The notes under the pieces were generated by a model. It was not told the origin of the DNA, ran no database searches, and was given only the letters and a program-made list of their open reading frames with translations. A stretch of DNA of 40,903 nt, from assembly GCA_947629045.1 (NCBI GenBank), contig CANRCF010000013.1:1-40903 (forward strand), read 5' to 3'. Below are positions 4,051 through 12,383 of the stretch, piece by piece. Numbering within the stretch: the stretch's first letter is position 1; the number at the start of each line of letters is the position of its first letter. The DNA comes from an uncultured Clostridia bacterium. Its GTDB lineage: Bacteria > Bacillota > Clostridia > TANB77 > CAG-508. The position numbers and the translations under genes are program-made.

Positions 4051-4953
4051 CTATACTTCTAAGTACTTTCTCATTGAAATAGCACTACCTATAGCACCAA
4101 TTCCAATTCCTAATGCTAAATATACTGTTATTAAAATTCCTAGCATATCTTGCATTGATAATAATTGTACACTCATATTAGCTAGTAATAATGATTCTTC
4201 TATTTTCATAATTACTGAATTATAGCAAACACCTAAAATTAAAATAGAAATTAAAACTGAAATTACACCAATTAGCATACCTTCTACCATAAATGGCCAT
4301 CTAATAAAGCTATTAGTTGCACCAACATATTTCATAATTGAAATTTCCTTTCGCCTTGCGTGCACTGTTAATTTTATAGTATTTGTTATTATAAATATTG
4401 AGATGAGTACTAAAATTACTAATATAATAATTGTAATAATTTTTAGTCCATCAGCAATTTTAATTAATGCATTTATTGTGTCTGCTTTACTTTCAATTTT
4501 TGCTACTATATCTGATGTTAATATTTTACTCTGTACTTCTTCTAATTTAGTTAAATCTGTTAATGTTACTATGTAAGCTGCTTTAAAAGGATTACCTTCT
4601 CCTTCATAACTAGATAATAGTGATTTTCTATTTTTAAACATCCTTTTCATTTCTTCTAGAGCTTCTTCTTTTGATTGATATACACATGTATTTACATATT
4701 CTAATTGTTTTATTTTATTTCCTAATTCTGTTGTTTGCTCTTGTGTTGCTTCATCATAAATAAACACCTTCATTCCTTGTTGCTCTTCTACTGTTTTTGT
4801 AATATGGTTTACATTTTCTCCTACTACAAAGAAAATTCCAAATATAAACATAGTTGCACACATGATAATTAAAGATGCCATTGTAGATTTTTTGTTTTTA
4901 AATACATTTCTAAATCCTTCACCTATTAAATATCCAAAAATACTATATCTCAC
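4051..4953 (-). CDS. ftsX: Cell division protein FtsX
   Basis: Integral membrane subunit of FtsEX. The first transmembrane helix (about 25-50) is followed by an extracytoplasmic domain of about 110 residues, then three further helices near the C terminus (about 170-195, 225-250, 275-295); this four-helix layout is that of FtsX. It transmits FtsE ATP hydrolysis to extracellular peptidoglycan hydrolases. I chose GTG at 4953 because AAAGGTGG sits 8 bases upstream; a longer GTG start at 4965 lies inside that binding site. The start overlaps the 3' end of ftsE, indicating translational coupling. Confidence 0.92.
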   Translation of the reverse strand: MRYSIFGYLIGEGFRNVFKNKKSTMASLIIMCATMFIFGIFFVVGENVNHITKTVEEQQGMKVFIYDEATQEQTTELGNKIKQLEYVNTCVYQSKEEALEEMKRMFKNRKSLLSSYEGEGNPFKAAYIVTLTDLTKLEEVQSKILTSDIVAKIESKADTINALIKIADGLKIITIIILVILVLISIFIITNTIKLTVHARRKEISIMKYVGATNSFIRWPFMVEGMLIGVISVLISILILGVCYNSVIMKIEESLLLANMSVQLLSMQDMLGILITVYLALGIGIGAIGSAISMRKYLEV

Positions 4954-5629
4954 GGTTATATCCACCTTTTTTATCGTCTCTTACGATATTACCTTCTTCA
5001 ATTTGAATTACTCTTTTTTTCATTCTGTCTACTATATCTTTTGCGTGTGTTGCTACAACTACAGTTGTGCCTCTATTATTGATATCGTTTAAAAGTGTCA
5101 TAATATCCCATGCAGTTTCTGGGTCTAAGTTTCCAGTAGGCTCATCAGCTATTAGCATTGATGGGTTATTCACTAATGCTCTTGCTAACGCTACTCTTTG
5201 TTGCTCTCCACCTGATAACTCATTTGGATACATTTTAGCTTTATTACTTAAACCGACCAAAGATAATACCATTGGCACTTGTCTTCTAATATGTCTAGGG
5301 GTTGCCCTTACTATGTACATGGCATAAGCTACATTATCATATACTGTTCTATCTGGTAAAAGCCTAAAATCTTGGAAAACTACCCCCATACTTCTTCTTA
5401 AATATGGAACACGTTTAGGCTTTAAAAAAGTAGTATCTTTTCCATTTATAATAATGTTTCCAGAAGTTGGCTCTTCCTCTTTTAAAATTAACTTTATAAG
5501 GGTTGATTTACCTGAGCCTGAGCTTCCTACTAAAAATGCAAATTCACCTTTATCAATAATAAAATTAGCATTATGTACGGCTTCTGTACCAGTATCATAA
5601 GTTTTGCTAACATTTCTAAATTCAATCAT
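4943..5629 (-). CDS. ftsE: Cell division ATP-binding protein FtsE
   Basis: A 228-residue ABC ATPase that pairs with FtsX at the membrane. Walker A GSSGSGKST is at 35-43, the Q loop includes VFQDFRLL, the signature is LSGGEQQR and Walker B is MLIADEPTGNLDPE, followed by the switch histidine in VVATHAKD. Length is standard. It is the first gene of the envelope operon, preceded by AGAGGAGTC and a good promoter at 5691-5719. Confidence 0.96.
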   Translation of the reverse strand: MIEFRNVSKTYDTGTEAVHNANFIIDKGEFAFLVGSSGSGKSTLIKLILKEEEPTSGNIIINGKDTTFLKPKRVPYLRRSMGVVFQDFRLLPDRTVYDNVAYAMYIVRATPRHIRRQVPMVLSLVGLSNKAKMYPNELSGGEQQRVALARALVNNPSMLIADEPTGNLDPETAWDIMTLLNDINNRGTTVVVATHAKDIVDRMKKRVIQIEEGNIVRDDKKGGYNREI

Positions 5630-5858: not shown

Positions 5859-6030
5859 AAACTTAAAATATTATGTTTTTTAGTACCTTGTTGTCGCAAC
5901 CATATTATGTAATAAATTGTTAATACTTAACAATTTATTACATACTTATATGTTGGTTGCTCCAAGCGCACTTCGCTTACGCTTCGTTTGAACGCTACGC
6001 GGTACTTACAAAACATAATATTTTAAGTTT
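5859..6030 (+). repeat. Structured repeat, copy 1 (172 bp)
   Basis: Nested inverted repeats close a conserved core. A perfect 21-bp outer stem pairs 5859-5879 with 6010-6030. Then GTACC/GGTAC (5883-5887 / 6001-6005), GCAACC/GGTTGC (5896-5901 / 5955-5960) and a perfect 18-bp hairpin (5906-5923 / 5927-5944, loop tac). A conserved single-stranded tail runs from TCCAAGCGCACTTCG (5961) to GCTACGC (6000). Copy 2 at 10327-10488 has the same core in inverse orientation with compensatory stem changes. The copies face opposite ways relative to flanking genes, which suits a small non-autonomous mobile element or an independent RNA better than a cis-regulator. No coding potential seen. Confidence 0.85.
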
Positions 6031-6056: not shown

Positions 6057-6983
6057 TTATAAAAATTTTTCAATGATAGCAATGCTGTCAATTTTGAAGT
6101 ATTTTAATAATTCTTCTGCTTTGCCAGATTTACCAAAAGTATCTTTTACACCCATTCTTTCTACTTTTGCTGGATATTCTTCCGCTAATACTTCACAAAC
6201 TGCACTTCCTAGTCCACCAATAATACTATGGTCTTCAACTGTAATTAATCTTTTAGTTTCTTTTGCACATTTTATAATTAATTTCTTATCTATTGGCTTT
6301 ATTGTATACATATCTACAACACGTACATTTATATTTTTCTTTTTTAGTTCTTCTTGTGCAATTAAAGCTTCTGAAACAGTTACACCTGTTACAAAAATTG
6401 TAGCATCTGTACCTTCTCCATGCTGAATACCCTTACCTATTTCAAATTTTTGCTTTTCATCATAAATTACTGGTGTAGCTAATCTACTTAATCTAACATA
6501 AACAGGGCCATGAAATTTAGATATTTCCTCTATTACCCATTTTGTTTGTGTATCATCTGATGGTGAAATTACTGTCATATTAGGAAGTGTTCTCATTAAG
6601 CTTAAATCCTCTAACATTTGATGTGTTGCACCATCTTCACCAACTGTAACGCCCGCATGGGTTGCACAAATTTTAACATTTAAATTTGGATAGCAAATAC
6701 TATTACGAATTTGGTCATAAGCTCTACCTGCTGCAAATACTGCGAATGTACTTGCATACGGAATTTTATTGCAGGTTGAAAGTCCAGCAGATATTCCCAT
6801 TAAGTTTTGCTCTGCAATTCCAACGTCTATAAATCTTTCAGGAAATTTCTTTGCAAATATATTAGTTTTTGTAGCTGATGATAAATCTGCATCTAGTACA
6901 ACAACATTTTCATTTTTTTCTCCAAGTTCAGCTAATGCTTCGCCATAGCTTTGCCTTGTAGCAATTTTCTTTTCCATATTCAT
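6057..6983 (-). CDS. Transketolase, C-terminal subunit
   Basis: Carries the pyrimidine-binding and C-terminal domains of a transketolase split into two genes. Landmarks include DADLSSATKTNIF, GIAEQNLMGISAGLS with the catalytic Glu that activates thiamine diphosphate, and HAGVTVGEDGATHQ. It works with the N-terminal subunit encoded just upstream (7101-7940) in the non-oxidative pentose phosphate pathway. I start at 6983, where AAAGGAAGAAAG precedes two in-frame ATGs; a longer reading to 7010 would place that site inside the gene. A 117-base AT-rich spacer separates the two subunits. Confidence 0.93.
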   Translation of the reverse strand: MNMEKKIATRQSYGEALAELGEKNENVVVLDADLSSATKTNIFAKKFPERFIDVGIAEQNLMGISAGLSTCNKIPYASTFAVFAAGRAYDQIRNSICYPNLNVKICATHAGVTVGEDGATHQMLEDLSLMRTLPNMTVISPSDDTQTKWVIEEISKFHGPVYVRLSRLATPVIYDEKQKFEIGKGIQHGEGTDATIFVTGVTVSEALIAQEELKKKNINVRVVDMYTIKPIDKKLIIKCAKETKRLITVEDHSIIGGLGSAVCEVLAEEYPAKVERMGVKDTFGKSGKAEELLKYFKIDSIAIIEKFL

Positions 6984-7100
6984 ATTCTTTCTTCCTTTCT
7001 TTGTTTGCATTATTTCTATTGATTTATTTTAACTGATTTAACTTATTAAAATTATTTAAATTATTAATATTATTTAATTTAACTGCGACTTGCATTTTGT

Positions 7101-9494: not shown

Positions 9495-10295
9495 TTATTC
9501 TTTGATTGCTTGTACTACTACTCTTTTCGTATTTATTGTATCACATGTAATTAGAGTTATTATACTTTTAGAAAAGTCTCTATTACAGTTAAATTCGATT
9601 TTACTTTTCTCTATCGCATTATTTATATAATTTTCTTTTTCCTCGTCTGTAAAGTTTTTCTGAATAAGTGGTAAAGTCGGCTTTTCAATATAAGATGCCA
9701 TTACTTTGTATTTGTTCATTCCTTCTTTTGTGTAAATTTCAACATATATATCCTTCCCATATTTTCCATTATAAATGTCTAATAAATTAGAAAACATCCT
9801 TCCATTTTTCATATTGTGTCCATATATTACTGTATTATCATCTGAAAAATCTGATTTTGTACTTGCATCTACAAATATACTACCAGCTATATTATATTTT
9901 TTGTTAATATCTTTTCTTAAATAATACTCATCTGTCTCGCCTTGCATAATTGGATAATTAATGTATGTGCCTTCTATTTTTATCCATGCTATTACATCTT
10001 TATTTACTTCTTCTAATTTTTCAAAATCTATTGTAATAGTCTCTTCATTATCTTCATTATTTTCTTCTTTCACAACATTTGAAAATAATCCCTGTTCTAG
10101 TTCTTTAGTCTGCCTATCACTTATAAGCCACATAATTACTTGATATGTGGAATAAATAAAAACAACTATTAATATTACTAATACAATGTTCATTATTCTA
10201 TTTTTTCTTTTCTTAGCTCTGTTCTTTCTACTTCTACTACCTACATATTTATTTTCTTTATCTTGCATCCTTGAATTTACATTATTTTCATTCAT
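9495..10295 (-). CDS. Class B sortase
   Basis: 266 residues with a very basic cytoplasmic N terminus (about 20-35), one transmembrane anchor (about 35-58) and an extracellular transpeptidase domain. The catalytic triad is visible: H160 in VIYGHNM, C251 in TLITCDT and R258 in NTKRVVV. The extra N-terminal part of the domain (about 88-110) is typical of class B. No CWSS-bearing substrate gene is recognisable in the window, so this may be a housekeeping or orphan class B enzyme. Structured repeat copy 2 lies directly upstream. Confidence 0.92.
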   Translation of the reverse strand: MNENNVNSRMQDKENKYVGSRSRKNRAKKRKNRIMNIVLVILIVVFIYSTYQVIMWLISDRQTKELEQGLFSNVVKEENNEDNEETITIDFEKLEEVNKDVIAWIKIEGTYINYPIMQGETDEYYLRKDINKKYNIAGSIFVDASTKSDFSDDNTVIYGHNMKNGRMFSNLLDIYNGKYGKDIYVEIYTKEGMNKYKVMASYIEKPTLPLIQKNFTDEEKENYINNAIEKSKIEFNCNRDFSKSIITLITCDTINTKRVVVQAIKE

Positions 10296-10326: not shown

Positions 10327-10488
10327 TACTAAAATATATAATAGTTTGAAGTGCTGCGTAGCGTTCAAACGAAACGAAGTGAAGTGCGCTTGGAGCAGTC
10401 AACCTATATTGTGTAATAAATTGTTAGATTTATTACACAATTAGAAGACTGCGACAACAAAGCACAAAAACTATTATATATTTTAGTA
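10327..10488 (-). repeat. Structured repeat, copy 2 (162 bp)
   Basis: Same core as copy 1 (5859-6030), here on the minus strand. Its own perfect 21-bp outer stem (10327-10347 / 10468-10488) has a sequence unrelated to the stem of copy 1. Inside are GTGCT/AGCAC (10351-10355 / 10461-10465) in place of GTACC/GGTAC, and GCAGTC/GACTGC in place of GCAACC/GGTTGC, each fully compensated. The central AT-rich hairpin containing GTGTAATAAA and TTTATTACAC is retained, as is the single-stranded block with CTCCAAGCGCACTTC. It lies between the ABC exporter stop and the sortase start. Confidence 0.85.
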
Positions 10489-10514: not shown

Positions 10515-12383
10515 TTACTCTTCCTCATTTTCAAACTGCGAATTATATAAATTAGCATAAAATCCGTTCTTAGCTAAAAGCTCTTCATGTGTTCCCTGCT
10601 CTACAACATCACCATTATTCATAACTAAAATAACATCTGCATTTCTAATTGTAGATAAACGGTGAGCTATAATAAAGCTTGTTCTTCCTTTCATTAAATT
10701 ATCCATAGCTGCTTGTATTTGAGTTTCTGTTCTAGTATCTATTGAGCTTGTTGCTTCATCTAAAATTAATATTTCAGGGTTTGTTAAAATTACTCTTGCT
10801 ATTGTTAATAATTGCTTTTGTCCTTGTGAAATGTTGCTTGATTCCTCGTCTATTACCATGTCATAGCCTTTTGGTAAGGTTTGTATAAAGTGATGCACGT
10901 GTGCTGCTTTTGCTGCTGCAATTACTTCTTCGTCTGTTGCATCTGGCTTGCCATATTTAATATTTTCTTTAATAGTACCTCCAAATAGCCATGTATCTTG
11001 TAAAACCATTCCAAAGGTTTTTCTTAAATCCCCTCTATTGAAGTTTTTTATATTATGTCCATCTATTAAAATTGCACCTTTATTTACATCATAAAACCTC
11101 ATTAAAAGTTTTACCATTGTTGTTTTTCCTGCACCAGTAGGTCCTACAATGGCTACTTTCTGGCCGTCTTTTACAGTTTGATTAAAGTCATTTATTATAA
11201 TTTTGTCCTCGTTATAACCAAATTGTACATGGTCGAAGGTTACATTACCTTTTAAGCCTTTTGTAGAAACTGGATTTTCAATTTCTTGTACTTCCTCTGT
11301 TTCTTCTAGAAATTCAAAAATTCTTTCTGATGCTGCAACCATTGATTGTAACATACTAGAAATTTGGGCTATTTGGTTTATTGGCTGATTAAATTGCTTG
11401 TTGTATTGTATAAAAGATTGAATATTTCCAACTGTAATTTTTCCCTGTACTGCTAAATATCCACCTAAAATTGCAATTCCAACATACCCAACATTTCCAA
11501 CAAAATTCATTATTGGGTGCATTAAACCTGACATAAATTGAGATTTCCAACCTGAATGATAAAGCTCTTCATTCATTTTTGAAAATTCTTTTATTGCCTT
11601 TTCTTCTCCGTTAAATACTTTTACAATGTTATGACCACCATAACTTTCCTCTACTTGACCATTTACATGTCCTAAATAATCTTGTTGTGCTTTGAAGTAT
11701 TTTTGTGATTTTTTAACAACTATTCGAACAAAGAAAATTGTAAATGGCAAAATAGTTATAGATACTAAAGTTAAGGTTATACTTATTGATAGCATCATAA
11801 TTAAAATACCAATAATTGTACAAATTGAAGTTATAATTTGTGTGATACTTTGGTTCATATTTTGTGAAAAGGTATCAATATCGTTTGTAATAATAGAAAG
11901 TACTTCACCATTTGTCCTTTTATCAAAATACTTCATTGGTAAATTATTAATTTTTCTAGCAATATCGTTTCTCATACGATATGTTAATTTTTGAGATACA
12001 TTTGTCATTGTAAAGCTTTGAATTGCTGAAAAGATTACACTAATTATATAAAGTGCAAGTAATGTTAAAAGTATTCCTGCTATTTTTCCAAAGTCAATTC
12101 CAGCTCCACCAGTTATTTTTCCAATTAGCCCATTAAAAATTTCAGTAGTTGCATTACCTAGAATTTTTGGTCCTACAATAGTAAAAATCGTACTTCCTAT
12201 TGCAAAAATGAATACAATAATTAGTTTCCATTTATAATCTACTAAATAATTTTTAATTAGTTTTTTGGTTGTTCCTTTAAAATCCTTTGGTTTTTCTACT
12301 GGTACTACGCCTCTTCCTCTAGGACCTCTTCCCATCATTGGACCTCTCATCATAGGAGGTTTATTTTGTTCATTTTCTGCCAT
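10515..12383 (-). CDS. ABC exporter half-transporter, second subunit (canonical Walker B)
   Basis: 622 residues: a Gly/Met/Arg/Pro-rich cytoplasmic N-terminal tail (PPMMRGPMMGRGPRGRG), six transmembrane helices (about 50-340) and a nucleotide-binding domain with Walker A GPTGAGKTT and Walker B ILILDEATSSID with the catalytic Glu. The signature reads ISQGQ rather than LSGGQ. Its start overlaps the stop of the first subunit by one base (TAATG), so the two form a heterodimer of the multidrug/lipid exporter type. The substrate is unknown. Confidence 0.93.
   Translation of the reverse strand: MAENEQNKPPMMRGPMMGRGPRGRGVVPVEKPKDFKGTTKKLIKNYLVDYKWKLIIVFIFAIGSTIFTIVGPKILGNATTEIFNGLIGKITGGAGIDFGKIAGILLTLLALYIISVIFSAIQSFTMTNVSQKLTYRMRNDIARKINNLPMKYFDKRTNGEVLSIITNDIDTFSQNMNQSITQIITSICTIIGILIMMLSISITLTLVSITILPFTIFFVRIVVKKSQKYFKAQQDYLGHVNGQVEESYGGHNIVKVFNGEEKAIKEFSKMNEELYHSGWKSQFMSGLMHPIMNFVGNVGYVGIAILGGYLAVQGKITVGNIQSFIQYNKQFNQPINQIAQISSMLQSMVAASERIFEFLEETEEVQEIENPVSTKGLKGNVTFDHVQFGYNEDKIIINDFNQTVKDGQKVAIVGPTGAGKTTMVKLLMRFYDVNKGAILIDGHNIKNFNRGDLRKTFGMVLQDTWLFGGTIKENIKYGKPDATDEEVIAAAKAAHVHHFIQTLPKGYDMVIDEESSNISQGQKQLLTIARVILTNPEILILDEATSSIDTRTETQIQAAMDNLMKGRTSFIIAHRLSTIRNADVILVMNNGDVVEQGTHEELLAKNGFYANLYNSQFENEEE

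Follow-up and report, generated by a model that had tools for sequence, protein, structure and literature searches.

A family of folded, probably MITE-like repeats found inverted in place between closely related Clostridia

Introduction

What kind of repeat occurs twice on one contig of an uncultured Clostridia bacterium, folds into nested stems and faces opposite ways relative to the genes around it? The window analysed here (the whole stretch of 40 903 nucleotides, contig CANRCF010000013.1 of assembly GCA_947629045.1, lineage CAG-508) carries one copy on each strand. A preliminary description of this DNA had reported the two copies and their shared fold, and BLAST, the covariance model and the predicted fold agree on both. 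The copies and the adjacent genes are as follows.

4943..5629, minus strand: FtsE (TIGR02673, over the cut-off)
5859..6030, plus strand: copy 1, full-length match to covariance model R1 (BLAST and covariance-model matches, E 9.5e-36)
5859..5879, plus strand: copy 1, left arm of P1, the outer inverted repeat and flip boundary (fold; arm comparison)
5883..5894, plus strand: copy 1, 5' side of P2/P2b, GTACC-T-TGT-T-GT (covariation in alignments A1 and A2)
5896..5960, plus strand: copy 1, P3, GCAACC ... GGTTGC with a length-variable hairpin extension (covariation; extension absent from the shortest copies)
5961..5991, plus strand: copy 1, P4, CCAA-(GCGC bulge)-AC ... GT-TTG (columns 119-142 covary; pair counts)
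5994..6005, plus strand: copy 1, 3' side of P2/P2b, GC-T-ACG-C-GGTAC (covariation in A1 and A2)
6010..6030, plus strand: copy 1, right arm of P1 (fold; arm comparison)
6057..7010, minus strand: transketolase, C-terminal half (NCBIfam matches under curated cut-offs, best PRK05899)
9495..10295, minus strand: class B sortase (TIGR03064, over the cut-off)
10327..10488, minus strand: copy 2, full-length match to R1 (BLAST and covariance-model matches; fold)
10515..12383, minus strand: ABC transporter of the permease/ATPase type (best matches under equivalog cut-offs)

Copy 1 lies 26 nt past the stop of the gene for the C-terminal half of transketolase, and copy 2 lies 26 nt past the stop of the ABC transporter gene, in the sense direction. 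The opposite facing noted in the preliminary description is borne out, with all four neighbouring genes and copy 2 on the minus strand and copy 1 on the plus strand. Folded alone, the copies reach -61.5 kcal/mol (z -12.56 against dinucleotide shuffles) and -60.4 kcal/mol (z -11.95), respectively.

A dispersed family with a three-way junction

The window copies belong to a family with about 37 dispersed members in their own genome (G000), according to the covariance-model search. BLAST gives 47 matches there, partial and self-inverted ones counted; the model R1, built from 28 own-genome copies, gives 46, from which 37 distinct copies were kept after dropping 6 reverse-strand shadows and 3 weak or partial matches. 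The copies are 108-172 nt long, a range that stems mostly from variation in the P3 hairpin extension, and different sites are 75-89% identical (BLAST matches of at least 70 bases). The copies have no coding capacity; among the 97 collected from three species (see below), 9 share more than 30 nt with a predicted ORF.

The outer stem, P1, is AT-rich and about 20 bp long, differs widely in sequence from copy to copy, and is present in 28 of the 28 copies examined (detected as an inverted 12-mer, one mismatch allowed, and its outward extension). It encloses three stems: P2/P2b, in which GCACC-U-UGC-U-GU pairs with GC-U-GCG-C-GGUGC; P3, which consists of GCAACC/GGUUGC and a variable hairpin, the extension of which is missing in the shortest copies; and P4, in which CCAA-(nCGC)-AC pairs with GU-UUGG around a 4-base bulge. 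The compensated differences between the window copies that had been reported at the outset are real, GTACC/GGTAC against GTGCT/AGCAC falling in P2 and GCAACC/GGTTGC against GCAGTC/GACTGC in P3. The blocks first described as constant and unpaired are indeed constant; TCCAAGCGCACTTC, though, is paired, CCAA and the AC further on making up the 5' side of P4 with the bulge NCGC between them. An initial P4 model that paired column 115 with 142 was replaced by 119 with 142 after column counts: these two columns hold A-U in 34, G-C in 6, C-G in 4, G-U in 1 and A-C in 3 of 48 distinct segments (145 rows given, 31 not matching the search pattern left out).

Covariation is strong in both alignments. In A1, the 28 own-genome copies, 92.2% of 1186 cells are paired with the first form of P4 and 93.6% of 1105 with the corrected one; with the first form, double changes occur in 27 of 44 pairs, and the 154 double-change cells compare with a shuffled mean of 44.8, none of 500 shuffles reaching as high. 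In A2, whose 20 copies come from other genomes, partly within the same genus, and which leans towards the model by which it was aligned, 93.4% of 880 cells are paired and 182 double changes stand against 51.3 in shuffles (0 of 500 as high), the count of further pair types being equalled by 5 of 500 shuffles. The preliminary description had made its case for a structured repeat family hang on further copies in the genome and on covariation over many copies; about 37 copies and the covariation in A1 and A2 bear it out, and the family has no match in Rfam 15.

The fold is also strand-specific. U35-G158 is U-G in 28 of 28 copies of A1 and 20 of 20 of A2, U40-G153 in 25 of 28 and 20 of 20, and U-U and U-C mismatches stand at fixed places; on the opposite strand, the conserved U-G pairs would become A-C mismatches. 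The fold thus makes sense on one strand only, which implies that the element acts as RNA or as single-stranded DNA. Selection for folding as a single strand seems to have acted on the inner stems.

Two side observations concern the variation of the family. The central block of P1 (A1 columns 9 and 11-14) is nearly invariant (25-28 of 28), with the outer pairs varying freely, and is weaker in A2 than in A1; it is possibly a protein or crossover site. Two divergent relatives in the own genome (L179, G000:C1:71133-71289, and L180, G000:C7:16117-16270) carry CTTGCTGTCGTYGC on the 5' side and TCMAACTGYGCG on the 3' side and, seemingly devoid of the P4 hairpin, perhaps represent a second, related subfamily.

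Inversion in place

The element could be followed site by site in three close species: the own genome, G098 (the genome of L031) and G099 (that of L032), the flanks in the latter two being mostly 85-98% identical to those in the first. The copies used number 37, 34 and 26, respectively, five shadow or weak matches having been left out in each of the two relatives. A site shared with a relative holds 77 of these 97 copies, in 32 groups and 57 pairs with both flanks matched. In 23 of the 57 ortholog pairs, at 15 of the 32 sites, the element is inverted relative to both flanks, and the inverted segment is the stretch between the P1 arms. One group (G000_C34_31212), where two species have a tandem pair, is doubtful; without it, inversion is seen in 20 of 51 pairs at 14 of 31 sites, and these 20 pairs are 88-99% identical once turned. 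In the cleanest case (G000_C33_9417 against G099_C19_26828), the core alone is turned, with flanks and P1 arms unchanged. At one site, both relatives carry two adjoining elements (G098:C14:10380-10611 and G099:C2:18718-18949) and the own genome has one.

The window copies show the same behaviour. Copy 1 is found in G098 as the same element turned (165 of 171 positions identical) and is absent from its site in G099; copy 2 has kept its orientation in G099 (155 of 162 identical), and the P1 arms alone remain at its site in G098 (L216). The window copies face opposite ways because elements of this family invert in place.

Other hairpins in the flanks do not convincingly invert, the control being weak (shorter arms, few independent loci, repeated rows). 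It covered 40 inverted repeats outside the elements with exact arms of at least 12 bases (12-14 bp in those with orthologs) and gave 39 same-orientation and 8 inverted matches, all 8 of low identity (70-77%) and between L131 and L168, i.e. from one array. That array (L131 2693-2937 and L168) is AT-rich, contains many short inverted repeats and adjoins one copy of the element.

The arms themselves change in concert. Across 48 ortholog pairs with 18 arm positions each (8 of the 57 pairs were skipped for register and one was unvisited), there are 14 compensated double changes, 2 other double changes and 41 one-arm changes, some of them counted twice since pairs within one three-species site share changes; at about 4% change per arm, an estimated 1-2 double changes would coincide by chance. 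The excess is accounted for by copying from one arm to the other as the element flips, or by selection that keeps the arms paired. The original proposal that either selection or a copying mechanism preserves a folded nucleic acid can accordingly be widened, as both seem to act, the former on the inner stems and the latter on the concerted outer arms.

Flips of this kind could in principle be made by a dedicated site-specific recombinase that acts at the P1 arms, so that the family would be an inverton-like switch, turning a 3'-end RNA module of many genes on and off in phase variation. Frequent flips with boundaries within short inverted repeats fit this reading, as do the higher conservation of the P1 central block relative to the outer pairs (25-28 of 28, A1) and the tyrosine recombinase domains of the own genome (4 matches at 3 loci, one of them seemingly split). 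However, the P1 arm sequences vary widely among copies, and a flip-flop of plastid hairpins is already described (excerpts of PMC6824564), so that we regard a dedicated switch as unlikely.

Distribution, loss and altered sites

The element is confined and patchy. In the family sample, it is present in 33 of 98 genomes and 18 of 39 genera, with 1 to at least 30 copies per genome, and within the own genus some genomes have at least 10 copies and others none. In the order sample, 91 of 287 genomes have a match, every one in the own family (the share of genomes from other families is not stated), and in the phylum sample the own genome is the only one of 398 with a match; the filters in the large samples were stricter, and weak copies may be missed. 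At gathering thresholds, Rfam 15 matches the window in three tRNAs and nothing else, and seven element loci searched at E up to 1 have no match there; plasmid and phage records contain no match to the element. Short-pattern scans of viral contigs gave at least 120 stretches for a first pattern and 30 for a second, and the covariance model finds no element in the 100 of these loci searched (all 30 of the second pattern and 70 of the first), indicating that those pattern matches were due to chance. No description of the element was found in Rfam or among the open-licence papers searched.

For 37 of the copies, 52 stretches at orthologous positions that gave no strong match to the model were fetched and compared. 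Among the stretches listed, many keep P1 arms or fragments of the core (e.g. L214, L216, L217, L218, L225, L232 and L253), and a few look clean (G098_C9_15421 in both of its relatives, L256 and L257). An idea prompted by the first site without copy 1 (L032), namely that the outer stem is a copy of the target site, was dropped because many element-less sites are deletion remnants that retain pieces of P1.

These patterns bear on a reading in which the copies are functional multi-copy genes for small RNAs, with their own promoter and acting in trans, mobility being a thing of the past. Such genes would account for the strong single-strand fold with its conserved non-canonical pairs and for the 77 of 97 copies at sites common to relatives, but their presence would hardly be expected to be patchy even within a genus, nor their core to be lost from many orthologous sites, as it is among the stretches listed; we consider this reading rather improbable.

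Other changes have occurred at some sites. At four of them (G000_C1_32537, G000_C15_8255, G000_C34_59593 and G000_C10_8012), some same-orientation copies are only 64-79% identical and of unequal length, which implies that exchange or replacement, or repeated insertion, also happens. Three element sites hold another hairpin-forming insertion in a relative (L220, G099:C5:91200-92600; L230, G000:C12:27900-29260; L263, G098:C1:35700-36920), which points to insertion hot spots or exchange.

Such insertions, together with the divergent cores and the draft state of the compared genomes (two or more of which are metagenome assemblies), could suggest that the inverted pairs reflect faulty assembly or independent insertion at a hot spot. 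This is very unlikely, considering that the 20 inverted pairs are 88-99% identical once turned, compared with 75-89% between own-genome sites, that arms and flanks are unchanged in the clean case, and that arms of about 20 bp are judged too short to mislead the assembly of a unit of about 170 bp.

Terminal repeats and target duplications in a related genus

The traces of spread are clearest in G024, a genome from another genus, in which the cores of 18 copies (of 20 fetched, two cut by contig ends being left out) show a median identity of 0.94, the highest value being 1.0. Similarity among them extends beyond P1, up to the end GTAACAGTTCAG, so that the long outer stem is, judging from sequence, the inner part of a terminal inverted repeat (TIR). 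The G024 TIR, GTAACAGTTCAGTGAATTTT, occurs 26 times at up to 3 mismatches and not at all in the reversed-pattern control. Among the 25 sequences given, ten distinct copies have both ends at up to 3 mismatches; six of these ten are flanked by target duplications and four are not. Three of the duplications are exact 8-mers, AATTTACT (L439), GATTTTTA (L443) and TAGTCAAG (L449), the rough chance of a single exact one being 5e-5; the others, two 8-mers and one 7-mer, have one mismatch each. The unit measures 198-206 bp, with longer ones of 236 bp (L450) and 247 bp (L439) that seem to be composites with a neighbouring repeat; the exact duplication at L439 surrounds the longer composite unit. This insertion is of the MITE type.

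These ends and duplications were observed only in G024. In the own genome, only the P1 arms of the terminal repeats are recognised, and among the stretches listed no clear target duplication is seen in the own genome or the two close relatives. In G090, three copies (L463, L466 and L473) terminate in a related sequence, which is GTTACAATTC or, on one side, GTTATGATTC, and the inverted repeat seems to extend further outwards; the G090 TIR has 5 matches in that genome and none in G070, G039 and G053. Some G024 copies (L439, L440 and L450) are adjoined or overlapped by another short repeat, with ends like GTTACAATTCAC and the core ACTAGCTAAGC(G), which may use the same transposase as the element.

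No autonomous partner or transposase was seen beside the listed G024 TIR matches in these draft genomes. The Y1 or RAYT type of transposase was rejected as a general partner: the PF01797 (Y1_Tnp) domain has no match in the own genome and shows no association with the element across the family, where it occurs in 16 of the 33 element-bearing genomes and 37 of the 65 others (p 0.52). The reading that the copies are REP/RAYT-type repeats moved as single-stranded DNA by a Y1 (HUH) transposase is therefore highly improbable despite the strand-specific hairpin, extragenic position and palindromic structure, all the more so given the TIRs and 8-bp duplications in G024 and the lack of a GTAG tag on inspection of the aligned copies.

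Orientation relative to genes

The copies lie close behind genes, and mostly in the sense orientation. With ORFs of at least 70 codons predicted by a simple rule, 94 of the 97 copies from the three species were classed: between tandem genes, 55 are sense and 12 antisense; 18 are in convergent and 9 in divergent settings, with median distances of 31 and 46.5 nt to the neighbours. Of the own-genome copies, 36 of 37 were classed, and those between tandem genes comprise 22 in sense and 6 in antisense orientation. Counted by site, 27 tandem sites are unanimously sense (14 groups and 13 single copies), one is unanimously antisense (no group, one single copy) and 9 are mixed (8 groups through flipping and the doubtful one). 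The contrast of 27 to 1 (p 2e-7, mixed sites left out) is to be read with the provisos that a few 'single' copies are orthologs missed by the grouping, e.g. G000_C2_37004 and its counterparts, and that sites within one lineage are not fully independent. Inverted pairs make up 12 of 36 in tandem, 7 of 12 in convergent and 1 of 5 in divergent settings (tandem against convergent, p 0.18).

The preliminary description had held that the opposite facing of the window copies argues against a 3'-UTR motif. This objection falls, given that the elements sit just behind genes, mostly sense, and that copy 1, antisense here, is sense in a close relative, having been turned in place.

The bias is absent from the young burst in G024, where tandem copies are 7 sense and 9 antisense (26 given, 4 at contig edges unclassed and 6 divergent); this differs from the three-species sites (p 1.3e-4) and from the own genome (p 0.026). 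G090, with a median core identity of 0.84, has 9 sense and 4 antisense tandem copies (20 given, 1 unclassed; p 0.27 alone). This age series consists of three lineages that differ in other ways too, lineage and replication direction being confounders. The larger sense bias of older copies points to selection on which copies or orientations stay, rather than to a polarity of insertion, which is disfavoured as the source given that the youngest burst has no bias. As far as can be judged from sequence comparison, the bias of old copies suggests selection on the transcribed fold.

A model of spread, flipping and survival

Together, these observations are probably best explained if the window copies are old members of a non-autonomous MITE-like family that combines spread through TIRs, a fold on one strand, flipping in place and the survival of sense copies. 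A transposase, which we infer, would act in trans, recognise the long TIRs and leave 8-bp target duplications, a route that is seen in the TIRs and duplications of G024 and would extend to the own genome. Between the TIRs lies the core, predicted to form a three-way junction of P2 with its conserved non-canonical pairs, the variable hairpin P3 and the bulged P4. The stretch bounded by the P1 arms turns round where it stands, as the outcome shows; the likeliest route is strand switching or recombination that takes place at the hairpin while it is replicated, and this would also maintain the complementarity of the arms. Insertions would begin unbiased, and those surviving behind genes would mostly be the ones whose folding strand is the sense of the mRNA; the fold most likely works, or is tolerated, within read-through 3'-UTR RNA.

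A bolder possibility, to which we would give only a small chance, is that the transposon family has become dozens of flip-flopping 3'-UTR RNA modules. A sense copy would provide the upstream messenger with a conserved three-way-junction end and inversion would remove it, so that the set of orientations in a cell would amount to an expression state that is both heritable and reversible; either a dedicated recombinase or the hairpin alone would do the flipping.

The sites of the element are natural replicates, in which young copies lack the sense-strand bias and old copies have it, so that selection on a repeat-borne RNA can be traced through time. Frequent flipping and arms that change in concert further make the family a chromosomal system in which to test how bacteria deal with interrupted palindromes.

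Comparison with known systems

The folds of bcr1, RUP, BOX and SPRITE differ from the three-way junction with a bulged P4 found here, and the element further differs from these repeats in having no Rfam match. Like them and other bacterial MITE-type repeats, as portrayed in excerpts of PMC3049150 and PMC3733652, the element is short, extragenic and stably folded, spreads in bursts and often lies by the 3' ends of genes; RUP and BOX share with it TIRs and target duplications (same sources). In-place inversion, seen in the element, goes unmentioned for these repeats in the excerpts of PMC3049150 and PMC3733652. The claim of the preliminary description that no such layout was known goes too far, as MITE-type repeats, bcr1, RUP and BOX among them, share the layout; the unusual features are the fold, inversion in place and an orientation bias that goes with age.

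REP/BIME sequences with RAYT are, like the element, palindromic, extragenic and mainly 3' of genes; REPs measure 20-40 bp and carry a GTAG or CGTC tag (excerpts of PMC3733652), whereas the unit of the element is at least 108 nt and shows neither terminal tag on inspection of the aligned copies. Invertons, about half of which are intergenic, are likewise invertible segments bounded by short inverted repeats (excerpts of PMC11892184); in the element, by contrast, the arms vary by copy and dozens of copies share one structured core. The small hairpin inversions of chloroplasts resemble the element in that the loop between the arms flips at the same site between close species, often downstream of genes, but they involve loops of a few bases in unrelated hairpins (excerpts of PMC6824564), whereas the loops of the element measure about 70-140 bases and belong to a single repeat family whose fold is conserved. 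The element unites three features that are usually seen apart, namely a mobile repeat with TIRs at its ends, a conserved fold that is specific to one strand, and inversion in place that recurs at many sites of one genome.
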